Shown piece after piece: positions 41,532 through 57,300 of a stretch of DNA of 64,000 bases. Each line of letters begins with the position of its first letter. The first letter of the stretch is position 1. This DNA comes from Entophlyctis helioformis (lineage: Eukaryota > Chytridiomycota > Chytridiomycetes > Chytridiales > Chytriomycetaceae), in the NCBI GenBank assembly GCA_025526915.1, contig JAHLKH010000088.1, positions 39,718 through 103,717 on the forward strand, given 5' to 3'. The notes beneath the pieces were generated by a model, which saw only the letters and a program-made list of their open reading frames with translations, searched no databases and was not told the DNA's origin. Both the position numbers and the translations under genes were made by a program.

Positions 41532-41670
41532 GGCGCCGATCGCTGTGGGCCGAGTGGGGAAAGCCGAGAAATGGGTGTGGATTCGTATGGATTTATTGCA
41601 AGTTATCGGGACCTGGATGTGAGCATGCAGAGAGGATGGGATGGTGGGTATGACGCGGCCGATCGCCGCG

Positions 41671-43687
41671 TTAAGCGACGTTGTTGGTGAGCTCGGAGCC
41701 CTTCTTGCCGTCCAGGAACTGCGTCACGTTGAGCAGAGTGGTCTGTGCAATCGCCTGCAGAGCCTCTTCCGTCAAGAACGCCTGATGGCTGGTAATGATG
41801 ACATTGTTGAACGTCATGAGCCGCGCAAGCTTGTCGTCGCTCATGATGGTGCCGGACAGATCCTCGAAAAAGTACGCGCTCTCCTCCTCGTACACGTCGA
41901 GTCCGGCCGACCCGACCTGGCCAGACTTGAGGGCGGCAATCAGGTCGATCGTGTTGATGAGCGGGCCGCGCGACGTATTGATGATCATGACGCCGGGCTG
42001 CATCTTGGCCATGGACTCGGCGTTGATAATGTACTTTGTCGTGGGCAGAAGCGGCAAGTGCAGCGAGATGACCTTGGACTTGGCATACAGCTCGTCCAGC
42101 GAGTCGACATAGCGCACGTTGGCCCATGTGGCGACCTCGTCGCTGCGGTACACGTCGTAGCACAGGACGTTGCAGCCAAAGCCCAGCATGATCTTGATGA
42201 AGCACTGGCCAATCTTGCCCGTTCCGAGCACGCCGACCGTCTTGCCGTGGAGGTCAAAGCCAACGAGGTTGTTGAGCGAGAAGTTGCCCTGCTTGACGCG
42301 GCTGTAGGCGTGGACAATCTTTCTGTTGAGCGACAGAATCAGGGCCGTCGCATGCTCTGCAACGGCGTAGGGCGAGTAGGCAGGGACGCGGACAACCTCG
42401 AGGCCGAGGGCATGGGCCGCCTTGAGATCGACATTGTTGAATCCAGCGCAGCGGAGGGCGATGCACTTGACGCCGAGCGCCGCGAGTCTGGTCAGAATGT
42501 CGGCGTTTGCGACATCGTTGACAAAGATGCAGACCACCTGTTGGTGCACGAATGGCAGAGGTTTGGTTGGCGGGTCAGCGGATCAACGTCAGATCGCATT
42601 GCAATGCAATGCACTAAGGATGCAGCACAAGGCACCGACCTGGCAGCCAGCAGCCAGCGTCACGGTCTCGGCCGAAAGCTTGAACGGCAGATAGCGCACA
42701 TCAATGGCACGCGTCTGTTGGAAGACGGAGACGGCGTGCTCAAACGAGACCTTTTCGTGCTGCTTAAAGTCAAAGACACACATGGAGACTTCGCTCTTGG
42801 TGGCGTCGCCGAGCGCGCGGCCGAGCGACGTGCGGAACTTGCGCAGTTCCTTGGAGAGGGATCTGAAGAGGGCGTTTGTGAGGGACTCGTTGTTGTGGAG
42901 GAGCTCGCGGAAGGCCGGGTTTGAGATGCGTAAGGCGCGGGTCTTGTCCGAGTCTGCGATGAGGGTGCCGTTGAGCGGCTCGTTTTCAAACTGGCGATGG
43001 GCAGCGCAACAAGATCAGCGTGTGAGCAGACAGCCAGGGATGGGAAAGGGGACTCACGAGTGTGGACTCGCCGGCCACGTCGCCGGGCAGGAGAGTGATG
43101 AGCTTGACGAGCTCGATCTTTGGGCCAGGGCTGGAGGAGCGGTCCGAGTGGGGGTCGTCGGGATTGACGCGCTTCTCGACGTTCTTGTAGACGCTTGCAG
43201 AGCCCTCGATGATGATGAAGAAGCGGCCGTCGCGCTCGCCCTCGTTGAAGATGACGTCGCTCTTGTTGAACTCGACCGTCTCCATCTTGCTTGTGATGGA
43301 GTGGATGTCGGCCTCGGACAGCTCCGGGAAGAGCTGCTTGACGACCGAGGCGGACTGGAGCGAGGCAGATGAGGAGGACGAGGTGGTGGCTGCTGCGGGA
43401 GGGAAGTGCGTGGGGCCGAAGCGGGTGAGGCGAAAGGCACGGCATTGCGGGGGGACGTTGAGAGGGAGATGCCGAAGGGGGAGATGCCGAAGGGGGAGAT
43501 GCCGAAGGGGGAGATGCCGAAGGGGGAGATGCCGAAGGGGGAGATGCCGAAGGGGGAGATGGAGCGAGATGGGCAGACGGTGGCACAGCGGCGAGGCGAG
43601 GCGAGGCCGCGGCGGCAGCAGCAGCAGCAGCAGCAACGGAAGCCGCAGCAGCAAGCGGGGCGGGGCATGGCATTGGGCGAGGGGCAT
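41671..43687 (-). CDS. Cyclic-nucleotide-binding-like domain fused to D-lactate dehydrogenase
   Basis: Three exons, 43687-43058, 42990-42640 and 42537-41671, give 615 residues. Residues ~80-240 form a CNB fold: VVKQLFPELSEADIHSI, FNKSDVIFNEGERDGRFFII, and the cassette PGDVAGESTLFENEPLNGT (across intron 1). The family's phosphate-binding Arg is absent. A helix LFRSLSKELRKFRTSLGRAL leads, inside the same exon 2 without any splice site, into a full D-LDH: SMCVFDFKQHEKVSFEHA, CAGFNNVDLKAAHALGLEVV, NAD loop VGVLGTGKIG, catalytic Arg in NTSRGPLINT, Glu in DVYEEE, and His in ITSHQAFLTEEAL. The likely reaction is NAD-dependent pyruvate/D-lactate interconversion, possibly under allosteric control. The N-terminal ~60 residues come from a 15-bp repeat (HLPLR units) and are doubtful; no later in-frame ATG precedes the CNB domain. 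Confidence 0.88.
43462..43562. repeat. 15-bp tandem repeat (gggggagatgccgaa)n
   Basis: About seven nearly perfect copies of a 15-bp unit. If the CNB-D-LDH gene starts at 43687 they are translated in frame as HLPLR repeats; they could instead be 5' UTR. Confidence 0.93.
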
Positions 43688-44299
43688 GTGGCGAGCGGGC
43701 GAGAGTGAGTCAGAGGGTGCACGGCCAGAGGGTCAGCCAGAGGGCCAGAGCTCAACAGCCAGCCAGGCAGGCAGGCAGCACAAGTCAGAAGGACAGCACG
43801 CACATGTCATGCTGAGTTGGCGTGCGAGTGGCAGTGTGTGACCGAGAGTGGCAGAGAGAGCAAGCGTGACCAAGAGAGTGGCCGAGAGAGTGACCAAGAG
43901 TGGCCGATGCAGATGCCGAGTGACCAGCAGCGGACCAGCAGCGGCAGCGTCCTCTTATAGGCCGCGTATCGCAGCAGCCGTGACTCACGCCCCGTCATGC
44001 ATCGAGTGATTGACTCGCTGATCCATCCATTGTTTGGCTGGCTGGCCCGCTGGCTGGCTGGCTCGCTGCACCTCACGCCCCGTCAGCCGGGCGGCCATCT
44101 GCCCCGATCGGCCATCGCTGCGATCGCTGCCATCTCTGCCATCTCTGCCATCTCCTCTCCTCCATCTCCTTGGCTCTCCTCCTCCAAGGACAGATCCCTT
44201 CCAGAGATCCCTTCCAGAGATCCCTTCTCCAAAGATCTCCCGCCAGTCTTGTTCTTTTTTCCACTCGACCGCACAACATCCCCATCAGCAACAACAGCC
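43688..44299. promoter_or_regulatory. Divergent intergenic region, CNB-D-LDH / ZPR1
   Basis: 612 bp between divergent starts. It contains repeated gagagtggc/gtgaccaagag motifs (about 43838-43912), a ctggctggctggctggct-type run near 44036-44068, runs of tctgccatc (about 44128-44158), and a ttccagagatccc repeat close to the ZPR1 start. I see no coding exon. Confidence 0.55.
44191..44239. repeat. ttccagagatccc direct repeats upstream of ZPR1
   Basis: Two exact copies and flanking partial copies of ttccagagatccc lie 60-110 bp before the ZPR1 start, in the probable 5' UTR. A similar element recurs just after the ZPR1 stop. Confidence 0.75.
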
Positions 44300-46133
44300 A
44301 TGCCGGCCGACCAGCAGCCCGACCAGCAGCCCGACCAGCAGCCCGCCGCCGTCAGCGAGACGCCGCTGACCGACGACAACAAGATGTTCGAGAACCTCGA
44401 CGGCGAGCAGCGGGTCACCGAGATCGAGTCGCTGTGCATGAACTGCCACGAGGATGCAAGTGTTGCCCTTGGCTTGGCTGTTGCCCTTGGCTGTCCATCC
44501 TGCTGCCGCCCTTCCTGCTGGCTGTGCATGCGGCCGCTGCTGGACCTGCTGCTGCCCTCTCGATCCTCCTCCCTGAATCCTCCGCTGACTCGGCCTGCTC
44601 GGCTGCGCACCTCCTCCTGCAGGGCACGACTCGCCTCCTCCTGACCGTCATCCCTCACTTCCGCGAGGTCGTGCTCATGGCCTTCGAGTGCCGCACTGCG
44701 GCTTCAAGAACAACGAAATCCAGCCCGCCGCCTCCGTCTCCGACTTTGGCATGGTGCAGAGCGTCAAGGTCGAGTCCAAGGCAGACCTCAACCGCCAGCT
44801 CGTAAAGTCAGAGTACGCCTCGGTCCGCTTCGACGAGCTCGACTTTGAGATCCCGTCCACCACTCAGCGAGGCGTCCTCTCCACCATCGAGGGCATCGTC
44901 GAGCGTGCCATCGAGGGTCTGTCGCAAGAGCAGCCCGTGCGCAAGGTCATGCAGCCCGACCTGCACGACAAGATCGTCGACATCATCGCCACGCTCCAGC
45001 AGTACATGGACGGCTCCCAGCCGTTCACCGTCACCGTCGACGATCCGTCTGGAAACAGCTACATCGAGAGCCTCTGTGCACCCAACCCCGACCCCAAGAT
45101 CACCGTCAAAAAGTACAGACGCAACCGCGAGCAGACCGAGGCCATGGGCTTCGAGTACAACGAAGAGCTGGAGCAGGCTGCCGACGATCAGCTCGCCTTT
45201 AACGAGCAGGTCCACTCGTTCCCGGGCATCTGCTCGAGCTGCTTTGCCCCGTCCGACACCAAGATGCACGTGCTGGGTACGCCATGGACTTGCGCATCTC
45301 TTGCATCTCTTGCGTCTCTTGCATCGCCTGTGTCATGCCCAGTCTGACCCCCTCTCTCCCTCTCTCTGTCATCGGACAGACATCCCGCACTTCAAGGAAG
45401 TCATTATCATGGCTACCCACTGCGATGCATGTGGATACAAGAGCAACGAGGTCAAGGCCGGCGGTGCCATTGCAGACAAGGGCAAGATCATCAAGCTGCT
45501 CATGACCGACATTGACGACATGAGCCGCGACATTCTCAAGGTGTGTGTGTGTATGCGGGCATCCTCCTTGCATGGCCAGACATGAGCAATGCCTCTGACC
45601 TCTTCCCTCCTTGGCTCCACATTGCCTGGCACAACCAGTCCGAGACCTGTGGCCTGCGGATACCCGAGATCGATCTGGAGCTGGCACCGGGCACGCTGGG
45701 CGGCCGCTTCACCACGATCGAGGGTCTGCTCCGCCAAGTGTACGAAGAGCTCGAGACGCGCTCGCAGTTTGCGGCGGGCGACTCGGCGTCGTCGTCGACC
45801 AAGGGCCGGTTCCAGAACTTCCTTGCCAACCTCGACAAGGTGCTCAAGATGGAGCTGGGCGAGGTGACGCTCATCCTCGACGACCCGCTCGCCAACTCGT
45901 ACGTGCAGAACCCGTACGCACCCGATGCCGACCCCAACATGACGATCGAGATCTACGAGCGCACGTGGGAGCAGAACGAGGCGTACGGCATCAACGACAT
46001 GAAGCTCGAGGGGTACACGAGCCATGACGATGAGGATGCTGCTGCCGCTGCTGCTGCCAGCGGTGTTGCGGATGCGATTGCCGAGGAGGCTGAGGAGGAG
46101 GCCGTCAACGACGAGGACGTCAAGGACGAATAA
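44300..46133 (+). CDS. ZPR1: Zinc-finger protein ZPR1 (one apparent 1-nt frameshift)
   Basis: Four exons, 44300-44455, 44623-45276, 45380-45540 and 45639-46133, give 488 residues once one base is allowed for in exon 2. ZPR1 binds and helps fold translation elongation factor 1A. It has the duplicated architecture of the family. The first C4 finger opens [20 protein letters not shown], followed by an alpha/beta domain with [19 protein letters not shown]. The second opens [20 protein letters not shown] and closes [13 protein letters not shown], followed by [19 protein letters not shown]. The first finger's closing half reads FEC then PHCGFKNNE one frame away: the gap at 44690-44692 needs one more C. 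Because everything else is intact, a consensus error is likely. Intron 1 uses a GCAAGT donor. The C-terminus is acidic. Confidence 0.95.
44456..44622 (+). other. GC-AG intron in ZPR1
   Basis: Donor GAT|GCAAGT, acceptor CTCCTGCAG. Splicing yields [19 protein letters not shown], the invariant ZPR1 sequence. The donor matches the strong GC consensus. Confidence 0.92.
44689..44693 (+). other. Single-base frameshift in ZPR1 exon 2
   Basis: The sequence gagtgccgcactgc encodes FEC in one frame and PHCGF in the next. The expected gagtgcccgcactgc differs by one C. The frameshift falls in the first zinc finger of an otherwise intact gene. Confidence 0.85.
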
Positions 46134-46146
46134 AGCGCATGCGTTT

Positions 46147-46189
46147 TTACAGAGATCCTCTTACAGAGATCCCCTTACAGAGATCCCCG
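46147..46189. repeat. ttacagagatcccc direct repeats after ZPR1
   Basis: Three tandem copies of ttacagagatcc(cc/tc) begin about 13 bp after the ZPR1 stop, resembling the ttccagagatccc repeats in front of the same gene. Confidence 0.85.
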
Positions 46190-46369
46190 CGTATTCCCGC
46201 TTTGGCTATGCGGGGAAGCTGCCTGCAGCGAGTGCCAGCAGTGCCAGCGTGCTCTTCCTGCCGCAAGGTGGTTGTGCAGCAGCACGCTCCCAACAGCCAT
46301 GGCGCACGCAGGTGACCAGACGACCCACTTTCAACTCGAGCCAAAAACACCTGCCTCTTCAACGAACCC

Positions 46370-47369
46370 ATGGCCTCCAGATCGTTTGCTCTCTTGGCGG
46401 CGTCGTGCCTGCAGCAGCGCTCGGTGGTGCAAGCACAGCGGACCGTGCCCGTGCGGCCAGCGGCCATGCGCTCTGCAGCCGCCAACAGCTTGGCTGCGTT
46501 CAAGAGCCTGCACACATCGCCAGGTAACGCACCGGCCCATGCCGAATGCAGCCGCCGAGCAGCCGTCCTTTATCCGTCAGCTGACGATTCGTGTGCTCCT
46601 TGTGCTGCCAGTGTCGCTGCACGGACCGGTCGGCCGTCCCGAGCCTGGCAAGGGGTGAGTGCATGCGTCTGTGTGCGTCTGTGTGTGTCTGTGTGCTGCT
46701 GATGCTGATACAACTGCCTGGCATCGGTGCAGGCTCAAGGTCACATACATCACACCGCAGGATGGCCCAATCACTGTTGAAGCCAAAGAGGGCACCAACC
46801 TGCTCGACCTGGCGCACTACAAGAACATTGACCTTGAAGGTCAGTCGGCCAGCGCAGACGCTCTCGCATCCATGGACTGCACCTGCGATCCTCCGCATCG
46901 GCTGCATGTGTCGCATCTGTCGCATCGTAGCGCATCGTGGAGCATCTGCGACTGTGAACGCACGGCGACGCTGACTGACTCGACTTGGATATGGACACCA
47001 ACCAACAACCAACCAACACCTGACAGGTGCCTGCGAGGGATCGCTGGCGTGCTCAACGTGCCATGTGATTGTCGACCCAGAGTTCTACAGCAAGCTCGAG
47101 GAGCCGTCGGACGAAGAGAACGACATGCTCGATCTCGCTTTTGGACTCACAGACACGTACGGCAACTCGCTTGCTTGGTGGTGGTGGTGGTGGTGGTGGG
47201 GCGGCTCGGCCCATGTCTCGGCTGGTGATGCTAACACTGCCGGGGGTGCCGTGACTCGCACAGATCGAGACTAGGCTGCCAGATCATCATGCGCAAAGAC
47301 CTGGACGGCATTGTCGTGCGGATCCCGAGCGCCACGCGCAACGTGCAGCAGGCCAAGCTCAAAAAGTAA
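46370..47369 (+). CDS. YAH1: Mitochondrial [2Fe-2S] ferredoxin (adrenodoxin / Yah1-type)
   Basis: Five exons, 46370-46523, 46612-46654, 46733-46839, 47027-47156 and 47264-47369, give 179 residues. It carries electrons for mitochondrial Fe-S cluster assembly, and in related proteins for heme A or ubiquinone synthesis. The N-terminus [20 protein letters not shown] and the following Arg/Ala/Ser-rich stretch form a presequence of about 50 residues. The mature domain starts near [20 protein letters not shown]. Cluster ligands are seen in [15 protein letters not shown] (C-x5-C-x2-C) plus the distal Cys in [31 protein letters not shown] is the acidic partner-binding helix of the adrenodoxin type. 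Exon 2 is only 43 nt. A (TGG)n tract lies in intron 4. Confidence 0.95.
47175..47200. repeat. (TGG)n tract in ferredoxin intron 4
   Basis: About eight tandem tgg units lie shortly after the donor of the last intron of the ferredoxin gene. Confidence 0.9.
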
Positions 47370-47690
47370 CGGGTGCACTCGGTGTGCAGTCGGCTGTTTT
47401 AACTCTATCGGTTCGTTGCGCTGGCAGTGGCAGTGGCAGTGGCGACAGCGGCAGCAGCGGCCTCGGTCACTCTTCTCTCTCTTTGTCCTCCACGCTCCAC
47501 TCGTGACACACTGTTTTCTACACGCATCATCAGGCCCCTTGTAGACCTGCCCGCACCTCGCCCATCACGCAAAAATAAGAATAAGTTCACATACCGATGC
47601 CATTTATCCAGCGACAACAAGAGACATAAAAAGGGGGAGGTGGTGGACCGCGACGTGGCGTGATGCGATGTGACGCGACGCGTGCTCAAG
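47370..47690. other. Convergent intergenic region, ferredoxin / EF-Ts
   Basis: 321 bp between convergent stops. It has a short tggcag repeat (about 47422-47441) and an A-rich stretch (47570-47640). No gene is evident; it probably holds both 3' UTRs. Confidence 0.55.
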
Positions 47691-48920
47691 TTAGGCTGTG
47701 CCGCCCGCCTGCTTCATGACCTCTTCCACAAAGTTGTCCTTTTTCTTCTCGATGCCCTCGCCGCAAGCGTACCGCACATAGTCGGCCACCGTGACCTTGG
47801 CGCCGAGCTCCGCCGACAGGGCGTCGAGCGCCTGCGACACGGACCCGCCGCCAAACAAAAAGTCTTGCGTCAACAGCGCCTCGTCCGGCGCGACGGCCGA
47901 CTCGCCGGCAGACGACGCATGGAGCGCTTTGGGTGCGAACCCGGTCACATGCTGGGCCACCTTGCCGGCAAACGCAGCGACCTTGGCGCGCGTGTCGGCC
48001 GACACGGCTGAACCGGGCTGATCGACAGCGAGCGCGACCACCGAGGCAAAGGTGCCAAGACCCGGCGCGAGGGCATTACCGCCGGCATGGGCATACACGC
48101 CAAACACGGTAGCAGGCGACGCAGCCACAGCGGCCGGTGATGCCGTCGTCGCAGTCGTCACGAGTGCACGACGGAGCCGCAGGTTCTCGCCGAGCTTGCC
48201 AATCGTCTCTGTAAACGATGCGCGCACAGTCATGTCGCCCACGACGCCGCTGTCGCCCACGACGGCCGCGTCCAACACGGCCTCGCTGTCCATGGCGACC
48301 AGAACGCCAGATGCCGATGCCGATGTCGATGTCGATGTCGATCCCGCTCCGGATCCCGCCAGCGCCGACGCCGTGCGAGCAGCGCTCGACACCAGCTGTC
48401 CAAACAGCGCGCTCTTGGCCACAAAGTCGGTTTCCGAGTTGACTTCGACCATGGCCGCAGCCGACGCCGAGGCATTGACATGCACGCCCACGAGGCCCTC
48501 GGCCGTGACGCGGTCGGCGACCTTGGCCGCCTTCTTGGCACCGGCAGCTGCCAGGTCGTTGCGCAGCCATTCGAGGGCGGCGGCGTAGACAGCATCGGGC
48601 GTCGTCGACGAGGACGACGATGATGATGCAACGGCTTGCAGCGCTTCCTTGGCCTTGGCGATGGTGCACTGCGACTCTTTGCGGAGCCGGGCGATCATGG
48701 CCACGTCGAGTTTGGCCGGAGGTGCGGCGGTCGCATAGTAGCGGAGTGCGGCGTGCGTGAGAGTGTGCGTGTGCGTGTGGGTGTGCGTGTGGGCCGCTGC
48801 GAGGACGGCCGAGACAAGCGGCGTGCGGCATGCAGACGGAGCATGGACGGCACTGCCCGACACAGCGGCGCTGGTTGGACGGACGGCGACCGCCAAGCGG
48901 CGTACCAACAGTGATCTCAT
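47691..48920 (-). CDS. TSFM: Mitochondrial elongation factor Ts
   Basis: A single exon of 409 residues. EF-Ts is the guanine-nucleotide exchange factor of mitochondrial EF-Tu. The start MRSLLVRRLAVAVRPTSAAV is a clear Arg-rich mitochondrial presequence. An odd His-Thr repeat (about residues 44-55), from a GT-rich microsatellite, separates it from the UBA-like N-domain (IARLRKESQCTIAKAKEALQ). The core signature follows: EGLVGVHVNASASAAAMVEV then NSETDFVAKSALFGQLV. The C-terminal part is Ala/Val/Ser-rich and ends with a coiled-coil-like EKKKDNFVEEVMKQAGG. A Ser/Thr/Ala repeat (TSTSTSASAS) near residue 190 comes from a gatgtc/gatgcc microsatellite. The stop of the next minus-strand gene is 68 bp away. 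Confidence 0.93.
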   Translation of the reverse strand: MRSLLVRRLAVAVRPTSAAVSGSAVHAPSACRTPLVSAVLAAAHTHTHTHTHTLTHAALRYYATAAPPAKLDVAMIARLRKESQCTIAKAKEALQAVASSSSSSSTTPDAVYAAALEWLRNDLAAAGAKKAAKVADRVTAEGLVGVHVNASASAAAMVEVNSETDFVAKSALFGQLVSSAARTASALAGSGAGSTSTSTSASASGVLVAMDSEAVLDAAVVGDSGVVGDMTVRASFTETIGKLGENLRLRRALVTTATTASPAAVAASPATVFGVYAHAGGNALAPGLGTFASVVALAVDQPGSAVSADTRAKVAAFAGKVAQHVTGFAPKALHASSAGESAVAPDEALLTQDFLFGGGSVSQALDALSAELGAKVTVADYVRYACGEGIEKKKDNFVEEVMKQAGGTA

Positions 48921-48988
48921 GGCGCAAAAACGCAGCTTGGGAAAACAACCGATTGTATTTGTAGCAGCAGTAACATCGACCGAGGTGA

Positions 48989-51761
48989 TCACCCAAGGAC
49001 AGACTCGTCGTCGTTGTTGCCTTGGCCAAGGGCTCGCGGAGGAGCGTAGAACGAGCCCGACGACATCCGCTGCCGCACCTCGCGTCCGTTCGCCGGTGCA
49101 GCGTCGTACGGATCGTCGAGATACGGCATGGGCGGCGCTGGGGCTGGCGCAGGCTCTGGCGTCATCGTCGCCAAGGACCGCTGCCGTTGCAGCGCCGTCG
49201 CAGAGTGGCTCAGCGGCAGGTGGTAGAACATGCCCGATCCAGCAGACACGTCTGGAAAAACAAACAAACAAACAAACACCGTGGCTGGCGGTCAGTCGAC
49301 GGTTCGCGCGCGGGCCGGCAAACGACAAACGCCGAGTGCAAGTGCACTCACCCATCTCGTCATCGTCTTCGTCTTCATCGTCTTGCTTTGCTGCAGCTGA
49401 AGCAGCAGCGCTCAACGGCCCAGCGACGCGGACGACGGCTGCTTCTTTGGAGAGGCCAAGGCAGACGTGGACGCCATGGCGCGCTGGCCGTCGGACAACA
49501 GCGACTGCACCATGCTGCAGAGCCGGTCCATTGCCTTTTCATCGGCATGCTGGGCAGCAGCAGACTGCCCAGGCAGTGGCAGTGGCTCTGCCAGCGGATC
49601 GATAAATGTGGACGACAGCGGGCTTTGTGGCTCGGTGGGGCTGTCCAGTGCCTGTCAGATGGAAACCAGCGCAGGCCGCGTTAGTCCACGCCAGCACGTG
49701 CCCGAGCAGCAGGCCGGGCCAGAACGCACGCTGAGCTGGCTGGAAATATCCGTAATGTCGTTGAGCGTCTGCTCGCCAAGCGACTGATTAAAGAACCTCG
49801 TAAGCTGCCGCTTGAGCTTCTGGATCACGACCGACTGTTGGCGCACCGTGCGCTCAAGCGACGAGTTGACCGACAGCAGCGACGTGTTTGCAATCTCGAG
49901 GTCCATGATCTGTGTCCATGCCAGCCAGCCAGACGAGTTAGACATGGGATGCATGACGGCATGACGGCATGCATGGCTCGACGTATGCCACACAGGCGGA
50001 CACGCACCTTGCGCAGAGCCCTGTCGTGCGATTGTGCCGACGGGTGAGCGGCGGACCTGCCGCTGCCACCTGCTGTCCGGATGACGGTGGGTGCTGTCGA
50101 CGACGACGAGGCCGACAGCGCCGATCCTGCGTGTCCGGGGACGTACGGCGACTGGGACTGGGAAAAGGGAACAGAGAGCGGTCTAGAAGGAGCTGGGGCG
50201 GACGCGACGGACGAGGAAGGTGTCGACGCAGCGGACGAAGGGGGTATAGAGCGGCTGTAGGTGCCGCTGTTGTAGGCGTTGATGGTGTTGTGTGTGGCAC
50301 TGGCGCCTGCACCGGCGATTGCGTTGCTGTACTGGCCTGCAGCATGAACGGCAGATGCAGAGCGCGACGACATGGCCGACGGTGCAGATGGAGGGGATGT
50401 GGAGTAGGGCGGCAACGACCCAGCCATGCCGCCAGGCGATCCATTGCCTGCAGTGGCATGGCCTTGGCTGCTGCTGCTGCGATACGCGCCGTTTGACCGC
50501 GACGTGCCGCTGCTGTTGCTCACCACGCTGCCACCATTCCCGGCATAGCTGTTGCCAAAGTTGTTGTAGTTGTTGTTGTAGTTGCTCTGGCTGGAGCCGC
50601 CGTTGCTGTAGCTGCTGCTGTAGCTGTTGGCGCTGTTGGCGCTGTTGGCGCTGTTGCTGCTTGCGTTGGTCGAGTTGGAGCCGTGCGATGTGGGGCGGGA
50701 GTGCGGCACAGCGTTGCGGCGCGAGGACGTTGACGACACCACCGACGACGACGATATCCGCAGCGGCGACGATGCAGACGTGGACGAGACGGTCGACTGT
50801 TGGCGGCAGGGAGCGTGCAGCATGTCAGCAACAGGCAAGTGTGGGGACGTCTGCGATGTGTCTGGGCTGTCTGGCTGTCTGTCTGGCTGGCGGCTGGGCT
50901 GGAATGCCAGCGGCGATGGCAGCGTGGCTGCACAGGCAAGCTCCGCTATCGCACGCAACGGCTGCGCACACAACGGCTGAGCACTCTACAGCACGCTGCG
51001 GGCCAGCATCTGTTGATGCGACTCTGCCACATTGATGTCCGCGGGTCGCGCAGGTCACGATGAGTGCTTTGCGGCGGACGGGGCCGACGTTGTTGATTCG
51101 AGGCGATGCGATGGCGCCGATTGAGGTGCAGCGGGAGTGCAGGGATGGTGCCAGCGCCGTTGCACCACCACAGCCACCAGCAGTAGAGCAGTAGGAGCAG
51201 CAGCAGTTGGAGCCAGTAGGAGCAGCACATGCTTGGGCCACCAAGGGCAGCCCGCACAGGCAATCCCGTGTGCAGGCAGCAGCCGGACAGCCAAGCAGGC
51301 AGCAGCGGCCAGCGCAAAACTTGCCTTTGGCCTTGACGGGGGCGACGACGACGACGAGAAGGATGCGGGCGGCGACGGGGGCGGCGCATACTGCGAGCTG
51401 GAGCGGGCAGCGCCACGCACGAGCGGGACGGCGTCGCCGGCAGCATTCACAATCTGCACCGAGCCCAGCGACGATGCGCGGCTGGCAGTGATGCCTCGGG
51501 GCGGGCTTTCTGCTGCTGCTGGTTGCTGGCGGGCTGCTGGCGGCTGTTGGACGGCGACGCCATGGCGGCCGGCCCACTGGACAGCGGCCGCCGGGCCGAC
51601 AGCGGCACGGGCGCCATCAGCGGCGAGGACGGGGCCGACGGGAGCGGCGACGACGGCGACGACGGCGGCGGCTGGCTGCGCACGGGCGGCTGATTGCCCG
51701 TCTGGATGGCCTTGACTCGGGCCTTGGCTGCCGACGCCCGCACGCCTTCGCTGTTGAGCAT
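48989..51761 (-). CDS. Ser/Asn-rich protein with a conserved coiled-coil segment (two apparent 1-nt frameshifts)
   Basis: Five exons on the minus strand: 51761-51325, 50796-50008, 49909-49730, 49651-49352 and 49251-48989. They total 657 codons only if one base is missing in each of two AAA/TTT runs (51507-51509 and 49446-49448); with those, every splice phase closes. I do not recognise a named family. Residues ~150-410 are Ser-, Asn-, Tyr- and Gly-rich and surely disordered. Exon 3 encodes a well-formed amphipathic coiled coil (IMDLEIANTSLLSVNSSLER, then VVIQKLKRQLTRF) that looks like the conserved core. Exon 4 has another helix (AMDRLCSMVQSLLSDGQRAM). The C-terminus is acidic, then Pro/Ala-rich, ending DDESVLG. 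Intron 1 is a GC-AG intron of 528 nt. It is divergent from CIA2. Function unknown. Confidence 0.65.
49445..49449 (-). other. Probable single-base frameshift in the Ser-rich gene, exon 4
   Basis: Reading on gives a stop soon after SASLGR (49412-49414). One extra base in the AAA run instead gives AAVVRVAGPLSAAASAAA, continuing through an acidic stretch to a strong GTGAGT donor at 49351. Confidence 0.65.
50797..51324 (-). other. Probable GC-AG intron in the Ser-rich gene
   Basis: Donor AAG|GCAAGT, acceptor CGCCAACAG, 528 nt, phase 0. It joins SRPK to STVSSTSASS. The intron itself is rich in CTG/CAG and shows no convincing codons. Confidence 0.65.
51506..51510 (-). other. Probable single-base frameshift in the Ser-rich gene, exon 1
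   Basis: The exon starts MLNSEGVRASAAKARVKAIQ but the later part, SPPRGITASRASSLGSVQIV, is one frame away. One missing base in the cagaaagcc run reconciles them and also makes the exon length compatible with its phase-0 donor. Confidence 0.6.
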
Positions 51762-51915
51762 CTTCAGGCGTAATCGGCCGACTCTCGATTGCCGATTTTG
51801 GCTTTGTCTGCAAAATTGCAATCCAACAATTGCCATCCAACAATTGCCATCCAAACAATTGCCATCCAAACAATTCCAATCCATCGATTCCAACAATTCC
51901 AAAACTCCAACCACG
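51762..51915. promoter_or_regulatory. Divergent promoter region with aacaattgccatccaa repeats
   Basis: 154 bp between divergent starts. About four direct copies of a 15-16-bp aacaattgccatccaa-type unit (51816-51885) fill the half nearest the CIA2 start. They may lie in the 5' UTR. Confidence 0.65.
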
Positions 51916-52757
51916 ATGGCAACGCTCATCAACGCCAACCCAGTCGTCTACGAGACCGAGCACAGACACAAGCACAAGCACAGGCGCACAGACTCGGCGG
52001 TCGATGCAGAGTTTGACGACTCGGTGCAGGACGCCATCGATGCGTCGGAAATCTTTGGTTTGTCTCGGCGCTGCGCTGCCCGCCCATGGCTCGTGGACTG
52101 ACTGCTGTTGTTGCTGCTGGCCTGCCGTGACAGAGCTCATTCGGAACATCAACGACCCAGAGCATCCTGTGCGTACGGGCATGCGCTTGCCGTCTCTGGC
52201 TCTGGCTCTGGCTCTGGCTCTGGCTCTGCCCCTGCCTGACTGACTGACACGCCGCTGTTCCCTCGCTGCGCAGCTCACACTCGAGCAGCTCAACGTCGCC
52301 CAAGAAAGCCTGATATCCGTGTCGACCGAGACCAACTCGATCATGGTGCGGTTCACTCCAACGATCCCGCACTGCTCCATGGCAACGCTCATTGGCCTGT
52401 GCATCCGTGTGCGGCTCCTGCGATCGCTGCCTGCGAGGTTCAAGGTCGACATCAAGGTGACCGAGGGAACACACCAGTCCGAGCATGCAGGTACCGCCTC
52501 TCTTGACCAGATTGCCGAGGGATGGCATGGCAGACTGACACGCTGCCGACAGTCAACAAGCAGCTCAATGACAAGGAGCGTGTGGCTGCAGCACTCGAGA
52601 ACAAGCACTTGCTCGAGGTCGTCAACCAGGCAAGCCCGCTCGTGAAGCATCCTCCCCCTTTTGGCTGCCCTGTATGGCCCGACTGACTGACTGACTTTGG
52701 GGTCACCATCTGCAGTGTCTCAAGAAAGCCATCGACATGGCGGCAGAATCGCAGTGA
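51916..52757 (+). CDS. CIA2: Cytosolic Fe-S cluster targeting factor CIA2 (MIP18/FAM96B family)
   Basis: Five exons, 51916-52057, 52134-52168, 52274-52490, 52553-52629 and 52716-52757, give 170 residues. CIA2 works with CIA1 and MMS19 to deliver Fe-S clusters to cytosolic and nuclear apoproteins. Signature stretches: [10 protein letters not shown] at the N-terminus, [40 protein letters not shown] (with the conserved Cys), [20 protein letters not shown], and [20 protein letters not shown]. Splicing uses two very short exons (35 and 42 nt) and a GC-AG intron before the last exon, which the conserved VVNQ-CL junction requires. A (CTGGCT)n repeat lies in intron 2. Spacing to the convergent PCMT stop is 152 bp. 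Confidence 0.95.
52194..52227. repeat. 6-bp (ctctgg)n repeat in CIA2 intron 2
   Basis: Five to six tandem copies of ctctgg lie in the intron between the 35-nt exon and exon 3 of CIA2. Confidence 0.9.
52630..52715 (+). other. GC-AG intron in CIA2
   Basis: Donor CAG|GCAAGC, acceptor ATCTGCAG, phase 0. It joins LLEVVNQ to CLKKAI; the family has VVNQCL uninterrupted, so the join is well supported. Confidence 0.92.
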
Positions 52758-52909
52758 CTGGATGCGGACTGGATCGGACTGGATGGCAGATGAAATGAAT
52801 GGCACATACCGACTGTAGTCGCAGAGCTGCATTCATATGCAAGAGGACGCTCGCTGCAAAAGATCGCAGAATCGTGCAAGTGCGATGCGGATGGCAACAG
52901 ACGCGACGA

Positions 52910-53940
52910 TCAACGCACTTGGCGAGAGGCTTCGGTGAGCGGCACGTACATGACGCCCATCAGCTCCCGCTGCGTGATGCGGCCAGTCGAGTCCTTGTCA
53001 AGCTGGAGCAGATACTGCTCGCCGCGCTCTGCGCCGACCGGGATGATCATGCGGCCTGGAGACGCGAGCTGGTCGACCAGTGTCTGCGGCAGAGTCGGAG
53101 CAGCCGCGCCAACGTGGATGGCGTCAAACTTGGGAACGGCGTCTGTCGTGAAAATGTCATGGCGGCCGTCGCCACAGAGCAGGCTGACGTGTCCTTTGCT
53201 CTGCAGATCGGGCGAGTATCTCTTCAGATTGCTGCGCGCCATGTCCACCAGCCCTGGGATGTGGTCGACTCCCACGACGGCGCCATTCTCGCCGACCATG
53301 TGTGCCTGTCGCAGTCAGACGTGGAGTGAGACGGAGCACAGTGCCCCAATCCACGGATGCAGACGGGTCGCATGGTGGCATCTACCATGCACGCAGTCAG
53401 GTATCCAGAGCCGCTGCCAATATCGAGCGCATGCTTTCCAGGCCTGAGAAACGGCTCCAGCGCCTCGAGAGCGTATGCGTGCATGTGCGGCGCCGAAATG
53501 GTCGCATTGAAGCCAATCTGTGGACACGTCATTGGGATGCCGCCGCCCAAGCCATCCCATCCCAGCCATCCCCATCCCATGTCAGAAAGTCTGTCAGGCG
53601 GTGCGAGCCGCGATCACGGGCCAGGGTGCAGAACGCACCGGAACAGGGTTGTCGGCGTACGGCCCATTGCTCGTAAAGAAGCCTCGGTCCACCTGCAGCC
53701 ATGGCCAGGTCAGCTGCTGCTGTGCCACCACCCAATTCGCAGCATCGCAGCCGTGCAAGCCAAGACCCACCGCCCGCATCGCCTCCTCGACTCGCTTGGA
53801 CGTGATGATGCCCGATCCTGCCATCGCATCACAGCCATCGTCAGTCTGCGGCCCCACGCCTGCCACCCCCTTGGAGCCCGCTCACGTATCAGGTTGTTCA
53901 CCAGCTCGCTGTTCGACGCTCCGCTGCACCTCCACGCCAT
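52910..53940 (-). CDS. PCMT1: Protein-L-isoaspartate (D-aspartate) O-methyltransferase
   Basis: Five exons, 53940-53886, 53817-53771, 53692-53639, 53517-53386 and 53305-52910, give exactly 227 residues, the usual length of eukaryotic PCMT. It methylates isoaspartyl residues in aged proteins using S-adenosylmethionine, starting their repair. Motifs in order: [40 protein letters not shown] (joined across an intron), [23 protein letters not shown]-binding [47 protein letters not shown] and GRMIIPVG. Exons 1-3 are all under 60 nt, but every splice site is canonical. It is divergent from RRP5, with 438 bp between starts. Confidence 0.96.
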
Positions 53941-54378
53941 TTTCTGGTCTGTGTGGCATGCCATGGCCAAAGAGTCAGCAGGAACAGCACACGCATACAC
54001 ACCATGTGCGACCCACAAGTATGTGACTGTTGAGGCCGATCAGGATGACCCCAGATCCAGCCAATCGACGTCGGGAATGCCAAGATGGAATGCGGATCAC
54101 GTGGAAGACACGTGACTGGATGGCACGAAGCAGAGCCGTGACGCATACTCCCAGCGTGGCTTGAACCTGGCCGCCTGGCAAGTGCGGCAAGTTGAGCAGA
54201 GCCTGGATCTGGCATGCCACGATCATCTGGGCCACCAGCGAGTGCCGGCATCTCGCAAGGACCCGCTCAAGCCAGCCAGCCAGCGCCAGACTCTCAAGAT
54301 CGGCCAATCAGCGCCCGACTCTCAAGGGCAGTGGAATGAATGGAGCAGCGCAACATTTTGTTTTGCACAACAACAACA
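53941..54378. promoter_or_regulatory. Divergent promoter region, PCMT / RRP5
   Basis: 438 bp between the two ATGs. There is a short CAACAACAACAA tract just before the RRP5 start, and no other feature that I can support. Confidence 0.5.
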
Positions 54379-57300
54379 ATGCCCAAGTCGGCCACATCTG
54401 CGCCGAAGAAGCCGCACAAGGTCGCTGCTTCAACAGCGTCCACACCCGCGGCGCCTGCAAAGCCAGCCGCTGCGCACAAGGCACCTGCTGCTGCCGCCGC
54501 CGCTTCGGCTGCACCCGCTGCCTCTGCGCCAAAGGCTGCTGGCCATCAGGACTTTCCCCGTGGTGGTGCTTCCGAATTGACACCGCTCGAGTACCGCGAG
54601 ATCAGCGACAAGGTCAAGGAGGATGTCCTCTTTAGCGTATGTCGTCCTCTTCGCAGTCCTCGTGATCGCTGCATGGCTTGCTGTGGATCGCTGCCGTCCT
54701 TGGCCGTCTCTGCTCCGCCCTGTCAGTTTGCATGCTGCTGGCTTGCATGTGCGACCAACCGGCTGACGCTCTTGGCAACATTCGTCGGTCCAAAAAAAAA
54801 AATAATCAAACCCAGGAGGCTGCCGCCGCCGAAACGGCTGCTGCCACTGCTGCTGCTGCTGCCGCCGACGACTCGAGCGCCAACAAGAAAAAGTCCAAGA
54901 AGCGTGCCGCTGCCGCTGCCGCAGAGGAGGCCGCAGAGGCATCCAAGAAGTCCAAGCTCGACAAGCCCGCCATGATCACTCTGCTGAACCACAAGGTACG
55001 CACAGAGCGCACCAGTGCATCGATGGCTCTGATCTGCGCTGACCGTCTGCATTGGACTCGACCGGCATGCATCGGTGTGCGCAGCGTCTCAATGTCGGCA
55101 TGTCGCTCATTGGTGTCATCAAGGAGATCAACCAGCTGGACATGGTCGTCTCGCTGCCCAACCAGCTCACCGGATTCGTCTCCATCACGGAGATCTCGGA
55201 CCACATCTCACAGCTCGTCGAGCTTGCCGTCGCCGATGACGACGAGGACGACGCCGAGAACGCCAAGACAACAGACGTTGACGATGCCCTGCCGTCGCTC
55301 GACAAGTACTTTTCCATTGGCCAGCCGGTGCTCTGCCGCATCCTGTCGTTGGAAACAACAACAACCCCCGAGAAGGGCCCCGAGACCAAGAAGAAGCGCA
55401 TCGATCTGTCGCTCAAGCCCGAGCAGATCAACGCCGAGCTCAACGCCAGCGACCTTGCGCCCGGCATGATCGTGCCCGCAACCGTCTCCAGTCGCGAAGA
55501 CCACGGCTACATTGTCTCCATCGGCATCGGGTCCGTGTCTGGGTTCCTGCGCAACGACCAGGTCGGACCGTACCTTGCCGCCCAGGGAATCTCTGAGCTT
55601 GCGATCGGCTCTGTTGTCGCCTGCTCGGTCTTGAACGTCGACGCGAGCGGCCGCACTGTCGCTCTCTCGATCGATCCCAAGCGCATCGCATCGGCCACCA
55701 TGACGGCTCGCGACGACGTGCAGCTGTCCCACATCCGTCCTGGCTGTCTCGTGACGGCCAAGGTCGACGAGATCATGTCCAATGGCATCTCTGCGTCCAT
55801 TTTCAAGTTCTTCAAGGCCCACGCCGACTGGTTCCACCTGTCCGACTCCCCAATTGCAGACACGGACCAGATCGGCACGCTCTTCAAGGAAGGCCAGAAG
55901 ATCAAGGCACGCGTGCTCTACGTCGACCTCAAGAAAAAGGTCATCAGCCTGACGCTGCTGCCCAACCTCATCGCCTGGTCCAACACCTCCTTTGACGGCC
56001 TCGAGATTGGCGCCATGGCGGACGACGTCTCCATTATCCGCGTCGATCCTGGCGTTGGTGTTCTTGCCAAGTTCCCCGGCGACCGTCTCAGCTACGTGCA
56101 CATTTCGCGCATGGCCGATACCCATCTCACCAAGATCGACAAGTCCTACCGCCCAGGCACCACCCACCGCGGCAGAATCATTGCTTTCGACTACTGCGAT
56201 GGCATTGCCGTGCTTTCCTTTGAGCCCAAGGTGCTCAACCAGCCGTTCCTGCGTCTCGCAGACATCAAGGCCGGCATGATCATCAAGGGCGAGATCCAGC
56301 GCCTCATCCCTGTCGGCGTGGTCGTCTCGGTCACGGACTCGATCCGCGGTCTCTGCCCCAAGCTGCACTTTTCAGACGCCACCATCAACAAGCCCGAGCG
56401 CATGTTCCGCGACGGCATCACGATGAAGTTCCAGGTCCTGTCGGTCGATGCCGCCAGCAAGCGTCTGATCTTGACCCACAAGCAGAGCCTCATGACCAGC
56501 AAGCTCGAGCCTCTGCTGTCGTACTCGTCGGCAGTCGTTGACCAGCTCACCATGGGCATCATCACGGCTGTCAAGTCGTTTGGCTGCATTGTCACTTTCT
56601 ACAACGAGGTTCGCGCCATCGTGCCTCTTTCCGAGCTTGGGTATGTGCCGCTGCCTGCGATCCCCTGTTGATCTCGCTTCACCGAATGTGCTAACATGCA
56701 TCTGCTCCCCAGTGAGACGTTTGTCCAGACGCCCTCGGATCTGTTCACGGTCGGCCAGGCCGTCAAGTGCCGCATCTTGTCAGTGGATCCCGCCAAAGAG
56801 AAGATGCGCGTCAGCTTCAAGCTCACTCCCACGGCCAAGCCTGCCAAGAATGCTGCTGCTGCCGCTGCCGCTATCAAGGCACCTGCCGTCGGAGAGATCC
56901 TCAACGGCACGGTTGTCTCCAAGACGACCGTGGGCGTGGTCGTCCAGGTCGATGGATTCGACAATATCACGATTGCAAAGGCTCACCTGAGCGACTTTCC
57001 TGCACACACGGACAAGCTGTTCGAGTCGCTCGACACGGGCGACAAGGTGTCCAACATCCTCGTTCTCAACGTCGATGCCCGCAAGAGAGTCACTGCCACC
57101 CTGAAGCAGTCGCTCGTTGCCCAGGTCCGTCGCGACAACGGCGTCCGCCAGTTCAAGGATCTGGCCGAGGGCGACATGATTGCCGGCTTCGTGCGCCACT
57201 CGACCGACAAGAGCTGCTTCGTCGAGTTCGCTGGCGGCCTCGTCGGTGTTGCGTCGCTGCACAACGTCTCGGACTCGTTTGTGTCCAACATCGCCGACCA

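Follow-up and report, generated by a model that had tools for sequence, protein, structure and literature searches.

Chytrid fungi encode a cyclic-nucleotide-binding fold fused to a D-lactate dehydrogenase and devoid of the cyclic-phosphate arginine

A 64,000-nucleotide stretch of the Entophlyctis helioformis genome (contig JAHLKH010000088.1; the window, below, is this whole stretch) encodes on its minus strand, at 43687-41671, a protein in which a cyclic-nucleotide-binding (CNB) fold of PKA/PKG-like type is joined to a D-lactate dehydrogenase (D-LDH). The gene model, the fusion, its conservation in other chytrids and the loss from the CNB of the arginine that binds the cyclic phosphate are established at the level of sequence. 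We give an even chance to the reading that this protein acts as a single-chain fermentative D-LDH, allosterically gated via its CNB by a ligand other than cyclic AMP (cAMP) or cyclic GMP (cGMP).

The locus is one gene of three exons, read in a single frame into a 615-residue product: exon 1 (43058..43687; residues 1-210) ends at the donor GTGAGT and includes the CNB fold from about residue 113, the Pfam match starting at residue 138 (43276); exon 2 (42640..42990; residues 211-327) runs in an unbroken frame through the end of the CNB beta-roll, helices aB and aC, a 16-residue linker (42784..42831; residues 264-279) and the start of the D-LDH part, whose first residue is Met280 (ATG at 42781..42783); exon 3 (41671..42537; residues 328-615 and the stop) encodes the remainder of the D-LDH, including the NAD-binding domain, Arg517, Glu546 and His578. 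Intron 1 (42991..43057; 67 nt) interrupts the phosphate-binding cassette between GESTL and FENE, dividing it into 43058..43072 (residues 206-210) and 42955..42990 (residues 211-222), and intron 2 (42538..42639; 102 nt) lies within the D-LDH part. Both introns have GT..AG ends, and reading through either of them leads to stops. In the 615-residue product, Pfam profiles matched cNMP_binding at 138-244 (E 6.1e-12; 45.8 bits against a cut-off of 27.5), 2-Hacid_dh at 295-606 (E 7.6e-30) and 2-Hacid_dh_C at 392-580 (E 1.4e-51), the latter two also over their cut-offs, as for a D-2-hydroxyacid dehydrogenase of the D-LDH branch; the CNB fold is identified by its profile match and, in models of homologues, by a roll with helices aA, aB and aC. 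An exon-wise six-frame search of the whole genome with the CNB and dehydrogenase families also matched this locus, the CNB match being weak (E 8.7e-4) because the CNB exons were scored separately.

The original prediction located the junction of both parts inside one exon and named two cases that would break the fusion, two separate genes and a stop hidden at 42800-42830. The junction does lie within exon 2 (42990-42640), and the Batrachochytrium salamandrivorans protein (P0001) aligns with the window protein without gaps over both splice junctions and the CNB/D-LDH join, which answers both cases as far as sequence can. The claim that a CNB-like fold and a complete D-LDH share one protein held in the profile search and in 17 further proteins of the same domain order.

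The CNB-D-LDH fusion is not unique to the E. helioformis genome. With residues 108-360 as query, 159 of 7994 scored candidates matched at E <= 0.001, and the first 13 of the 120 matches listed are CNB-D-LDH proteins; 12 of these 13 carry the precomputed PF00027 label, which is absent on P0005 of B. dendrobatidis, yet this protein aligns across the region. A second search, with the Chytriomyces confervae protein (24 proteins among 4227 candidates), added four fusions (Rhizoclosmatium, Physocladia, Cladochytrium and Chytridiales JEL 0842). The database fusions total 17, of which 16 come from 15 named organisms, all chytrids; P0002 comes without an organism name, and the record P0003 is partial. 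Three genera were looked up and belong to three orders: Batrachochytrium to Rhizophydiales, Cladochytrium to Cladochytriales and Rhizoclosmatium to Chytridiales. Chytrids include amphibian pathogens and freshwater saprobes. The nearest homologue, P0001, is 48.6% identical over 148 CNB positions and 76.6% over 337 D-LDH positions. In P0005 the CNB is degenerate (32.1% identity to the window, branch length 1.49) and the D-LDH is 75.1% identical, so that the CNB sensor may be decaying in the B. dendrobatidis lineage.

All 18 fusions (the window protein and the 17 database ones) were aligned to compare the phosphate-binding cassette. The cyclic-phosphate Arg is absent from every one, its position being occupied by Ile (8), Leu (7; Leu216 in the window), Met (1), Phe (1) or Cys (1). 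The other cassette residues are retained: Gly in 18/18, Glu in 17/18 (Asp in the other), Ser in 17/18, Ala in 16/18 (Gly in the window) and Thr in 17/18, and these residues rank high among the CNB columns for conservation. The window spacing Gly-Glu...Pro-Leu equals, gap-free, what we take to be the PKA motif, Gly-Glu...Pro-Arg; the retained Glu is presumably the ligand of the ribose 2'-OH. Of the two residues that mark a cyclic-nucleotide receptor, the fusions thus keep the cassette Glu (17/18) and never the Arg (0/18). The position of PKA A202 (cassette position 4) holds Thr (5), Leu (2), Pro (2), Ala (1) or a gap (8), and the Glu found there in trypanosome-type nucleoside receptors occurs in none of the 18. 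A CNB profile built from 13 fusions (the window and 12 of the 17 database ones) matched PKG (E 3e-39) and PKA RI-alpha (E 2.6e-24); the best CRP-like chain was weaker (E 8.5e-18), among the 60 of 199 matches listed.

As a control, a cassette pattern was applied to 12 loci of the 26 CNB exon matches in the same genome (the window's own included); the pattern required the terminal Ala-Thr and covers only part of the sites. Arg was present at one PKA-R-like site (GELALMYNAPRAAT) and at two sites within an array of CNBs (contig C7); a further locus (L013) gave a doubtful Arg site and another (L007) a plain false match without Arg. Because the Arg is missing in 18/18 fusions and kept at these three clear sites, cAMP and cGMP are unlikely ligands of the fusion CNB. 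This Arg is described as conserved in all CNBs, where it binds the cyclic phosphate (PMC9417419), and in a trypanosome PKA without it nucleosides are the ligands (PMC10959531). A nucleoside ligand was first considered by this analogy and then lowered, since the second Glu is absent. With both the Arg and the trypanosome Glu lacking, the predicted pocket fits neither the cyclic-nucleotide nor the trypanosome nucleoside type.

The D-LDH part is, judged by its residues, a complete NAD-type D-LDH predicted to convert pyruvate to D-lactate. The catalytic Arg, Glu and His and the NAD-type Asp at the end of the second strand are kept in 18 of 19 fusion rows (17 chytrid-type and 2 metagenome fusions), the remaining row being partial and gapped; in the window the three catalytic residues, proposed earlier to be intact, align as R517, E546 and H578. 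We assume for them the roles known from the L. bulgaricus enzyme, and likewise for the Asp. The nearest solved relatives of this part are named D-LDH. All the Foldseek and VIA-align matches listed fall on it and are uninformative about the CNB.

How the two parts might communicate can be outlined conditionally. The CNB pocket would bind a small molecule other than cAMP or cGMP, with the ribose-binding Glu kept and the charge-neutralising Arg lost; binding would close the cassette and move aB and aC as in other CNBs; the linker, or contacts between CNBs of the oligomer, would relay the signal to the D-LDH; this would alter either the closure of that enzyme or its subunit state, and the flux from pyruvate to D-lactate would track an energy signal borne by a nucleotide or metabolite. 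Both the ligand gating and its path are what we infer here. AlphaFold2 models of P0001 (mean predicted local distance difference test score, pLDDT, 83.4; predicted template-modelling score 0.69) and of the fusion P0010 (83.3 and 0.61) show the roll, aB and a 29-residue aC followed by the first D-LDH strand, and F262 and R263 of aC are invariant in 18/18 fusions.

Several observations weigh against such gating. The end of aC and the linker fall below pLDDT 50 in both models (165-171 in P0001; 152-166 in P0010); the linker has 16 residues in 4/4 members of the window's clade and 22-46 in the other 14 fusions, so a rigid lever cannot be general and the mechanism must allow a flexible link outside that clade. 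The trypanosome nucleoside Glu is missing along with the Arg, so that none of the known ligand classes is indicated. The CNB of B. dendrobatidis has degenerated while its D-LDH has stayed close to that of the window, and three chytrid records without a CNB stand at three separate places within the fusion clade of the D-LDH tree, by which the fusion label needs 4 changes on that tree.

Separately, the linker of 4/18 fusions (P0004, P0006, P0007 and P0126) contains RRDS[LV], absent from the window linker; it fits what we take to be the PKA site pattern, RRxS-hydrophobic, and suggests a second, cAMP-dependent control in some chytrids.

The main rival reading, which we hold as possible though doubtful, is a ligand-free CNB with a structural or oligomerising role, whose pocket is filled by apolar side chains or locked in one state and whose enzyme is constitutively set. 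In 17/18 fusions an aliphatic or aromatic residue stands at the Arg position (Cys in one), so the pocket would be packed; mutation of the same Arg in CNB-A of PKG I constitutively activates the kinase (PMC9417419); and the degenerate B. dendrobatidis CNB points the same way. However, Gly-Glu-Ser and Ala-Thr are among the better conserved CNB columns, which would be unexpected for an empty scaffold. Rather unlikely, in turn, is an extension of the ligand-gated reading: in chytrids a cyclic-nucleotide receptor would have become a built-in sensor for some other small molecule, for instance GTP, a further nucleotide or an apolar metabolite, and would switch D-lactate fermentation directly; it would then represent a new CNB ligand class and explain at the molecular level the allosteric fungal D-LDHs named in a title of 1971 (see below).

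We consider it quite improbable that cAMP or cGMP remains the ligand of the CNB, the role of the Arg having passed to a different basic residue, and that the enzyme acts as a cyclic-nucleotide effector. The genome does encode nucleotide cyclase domains (19 exon matches) and the PKA-R-like CNB, and Lys168 and Arg263, invariant in 18/18 fusions, might in principle substitute; but no fusion has an Arg at the site of this residue, the residue said to be universal in CNBs as the ligand of the cyclic phosphate (PMC9417419), and in the Arg-less trypanosome PKA-R cAMP was inactive up to 5 mM, the introduction of Arg being part of what restored a cyclic-nucleotide response (PMC10959531).

Very unlikely, too, is that the gene yields, beside the full-length fusion, a plain D-LDH started at Met280, so that the CNB would control only part of the enzyme pool. 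Met occupies this position in 16/18 fusions (the window and 15 of the 17 database ones, the others having Ile and Leu), and the three short chytrid records (P0014, P0015 and P0128) start exactly there, that of Chytriomyces cf. hyalinus being 99% identical to the fusion P0010 across the shared part. The Met is however missing in 2/18, it may be just the former D-LDH start retained after fusion, and truncation of the gene models might account for the short records. Finally, an artefact of two adjacent genes or an assembly join, which the doubtful start codon and N-terminus might favour, is refuted for practical purposes because the homologues (17, with 16 from 15 named organisms) share the domain order and the join sits within an exon.

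The origin of the fusion was addressed with two quick trees. The D-LDH tree held 56 D-LDH parts, a subset of the rows at hand: 17 fusions including the window (partial P0003 excluded), the three short chytrid models, P0017-P0020, the even-numbered short rows P0022-P0044 and those odd-numbered bacterial loci (19) that passed filters on length and motif. The 17 fusions and three short models form one set (Shimodaira-Hasegawa-like approximate likelihood-ratio test, SH-aLRT, 100), in which the window groups with P0001, P0002 and P0005 (support 98). In the CNB tree all 18 fusions form one set at 91, a group that is not starred, and other rows were flagged for long branches. These groupings point to one old fusion event in chytrids, the short models being either truncated gene models or secondary losses.

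A second type of CNB-D-LDH protein is present in two JGI metagenome sequences, P0021 (497 residues) and P0129 (489 residues), which keep the Arg and have lost the cassette Glu; their source is perhaps bacterial. Both fall outside the chytrid set in the two trees, which led us to treat them as a separate fusion, their placement being unsure because of long branches. A prokaryotic origin of the fusion was considered and rejected: in a single scan of genome contigs with P0021 as query (59 loci, of which 42 were resolved by the motif pattern and 17 were not), the resolved loci had 74-180 codons between the last stop and the D-LDH RxxGxN motif, against 231 residues in P0021, so none of these 42 appeared to have an upstream stretch long enough for a CNB, although the CNB itself was not searched for in them. 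Two other metagenome proteins, P0016 (818 residues) and P0071 (677 residues), have, by eye, two tandem D-LDH-like units.

The N-terminus of the long model, residues 1 to about 104, is doubtful. It contains a perfect 15-bp tandem repeat (43464..43561, minus strand; 6.5 copies, read as (LPLRH)n), and 118 residues precede the CNB-start column L119 in the window against 8-31 in 13 of the 17 database fusions (51 in P0003, 60 in P0005 and 271 in P0004; P0007 begins within the CNB). Because of the repeat and the mostly shorter homologues, this part may instead be an untranslated region or an intron. By eye, a pyrimidine-rich stretch ending in AG lies directly before an alanine run near residue 98, so that a separate exon further upstream may supply the start. 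Around the gene, a 433-residue stop-free frame on the plus strand (41623-42924), antisense to the D-LDH exons, is probably a by-product of codon composition, and an exon of a ZPR1 gene (about 44589-45347, plus strand; jr-ZPR1 E 2.6e-44) lies upstream of the fusion gene in divergent orientation. Elsewhere in the genome, contig C2 carries at 42770-56427 four successive nucleotide-cyclase exon matches with near-equal scores and a spacing of about 4.2-4.9 kb, perhaps a tandem array of cyclase genes.

No description of a CNB-D-LDH protein was found in the literature searched, judged by titles and the starts of abstracts and with most subscription journals outside its coverage, which agrees with the claim of the original prediction that none has been described; the sequences themselves are already public in NCBI and UniRef, where the fusions are named 'hypothetical' or 'cyclic nucleotide-bind...' proteins. 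In this chytrid protein a signalling fold is directly attached to a terminal enzyme of fermentation. It also offers a natural case of a CNB that has lost its cyclic-phosphate residue across a whole set and retains the remaining cassette, so that a ligand can be sought directly. LeJohn (1971, 'D(-)-lactate dehydrogenases in fungi') reportedly dealt, by its title, with allosteric inhibition by GTP; this is a lead that we do not use as evidence, and the fusion offers a concrete protein for testing that fifty-year-old report of allosteric fungal D-LDHs.

Among known systems, the fermentative NAD-dependent D-LDHs (P. aeruginosa 5z20/6abj, F. nucleatum, E. coli, Dictyostelium 7wn9 and Chlamydomonas 4zgs) share the whole enzyme with the D-LDH part, from about residue 1 to the end, including the catalytic Arg, Glu and His and the NAD-type Asp; unlike the fusion, their chains of about 330-390 residues are too short for a CNB. 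Three bacterial ones are described as allosteric in an abstract that mentions no added domain (PMC4230899). The ldhD of Pecoramyces ruminantium, a gut fungus, is a single-copy fungal D-LDH gene whose knock-down lowers D-LDH activity and D-lactate, and its 996 bp leave no space for a CNB (PMC5796279). The CNBs of the PKA regulatory subunit and PKG share with the fusions the profile match and the cassette Gly-Glu and Ala-Thr; they differ in that the Arg position of the fusions is apolar in 17/18 (Cys in one) and their CNB is joined to a metabolic dehydrogenase rather than linked to a kinase. The trypanosomatid PKAR, a nucleoside receptor, is likewise Arg-less and keeps the first cassette Glu; its second Glu, which contacts the ribose 3' and 5' OH (PMC10959531), is absent in 18/18 fusions. 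SerA/PGDH enzymes, in whose account (PMC6303947) the main text has 0 occurrences of 'cNMP' or 'cyclic nucleotide', belong to the same dehydrogenase superfamily and also have an extra ligand domain, ACT or ASB; there, however, the added domains are C-terminal to the enzyme and ACT binds serine (PMC6303947), whereas the CNB of the fusion precedes the enzyme.
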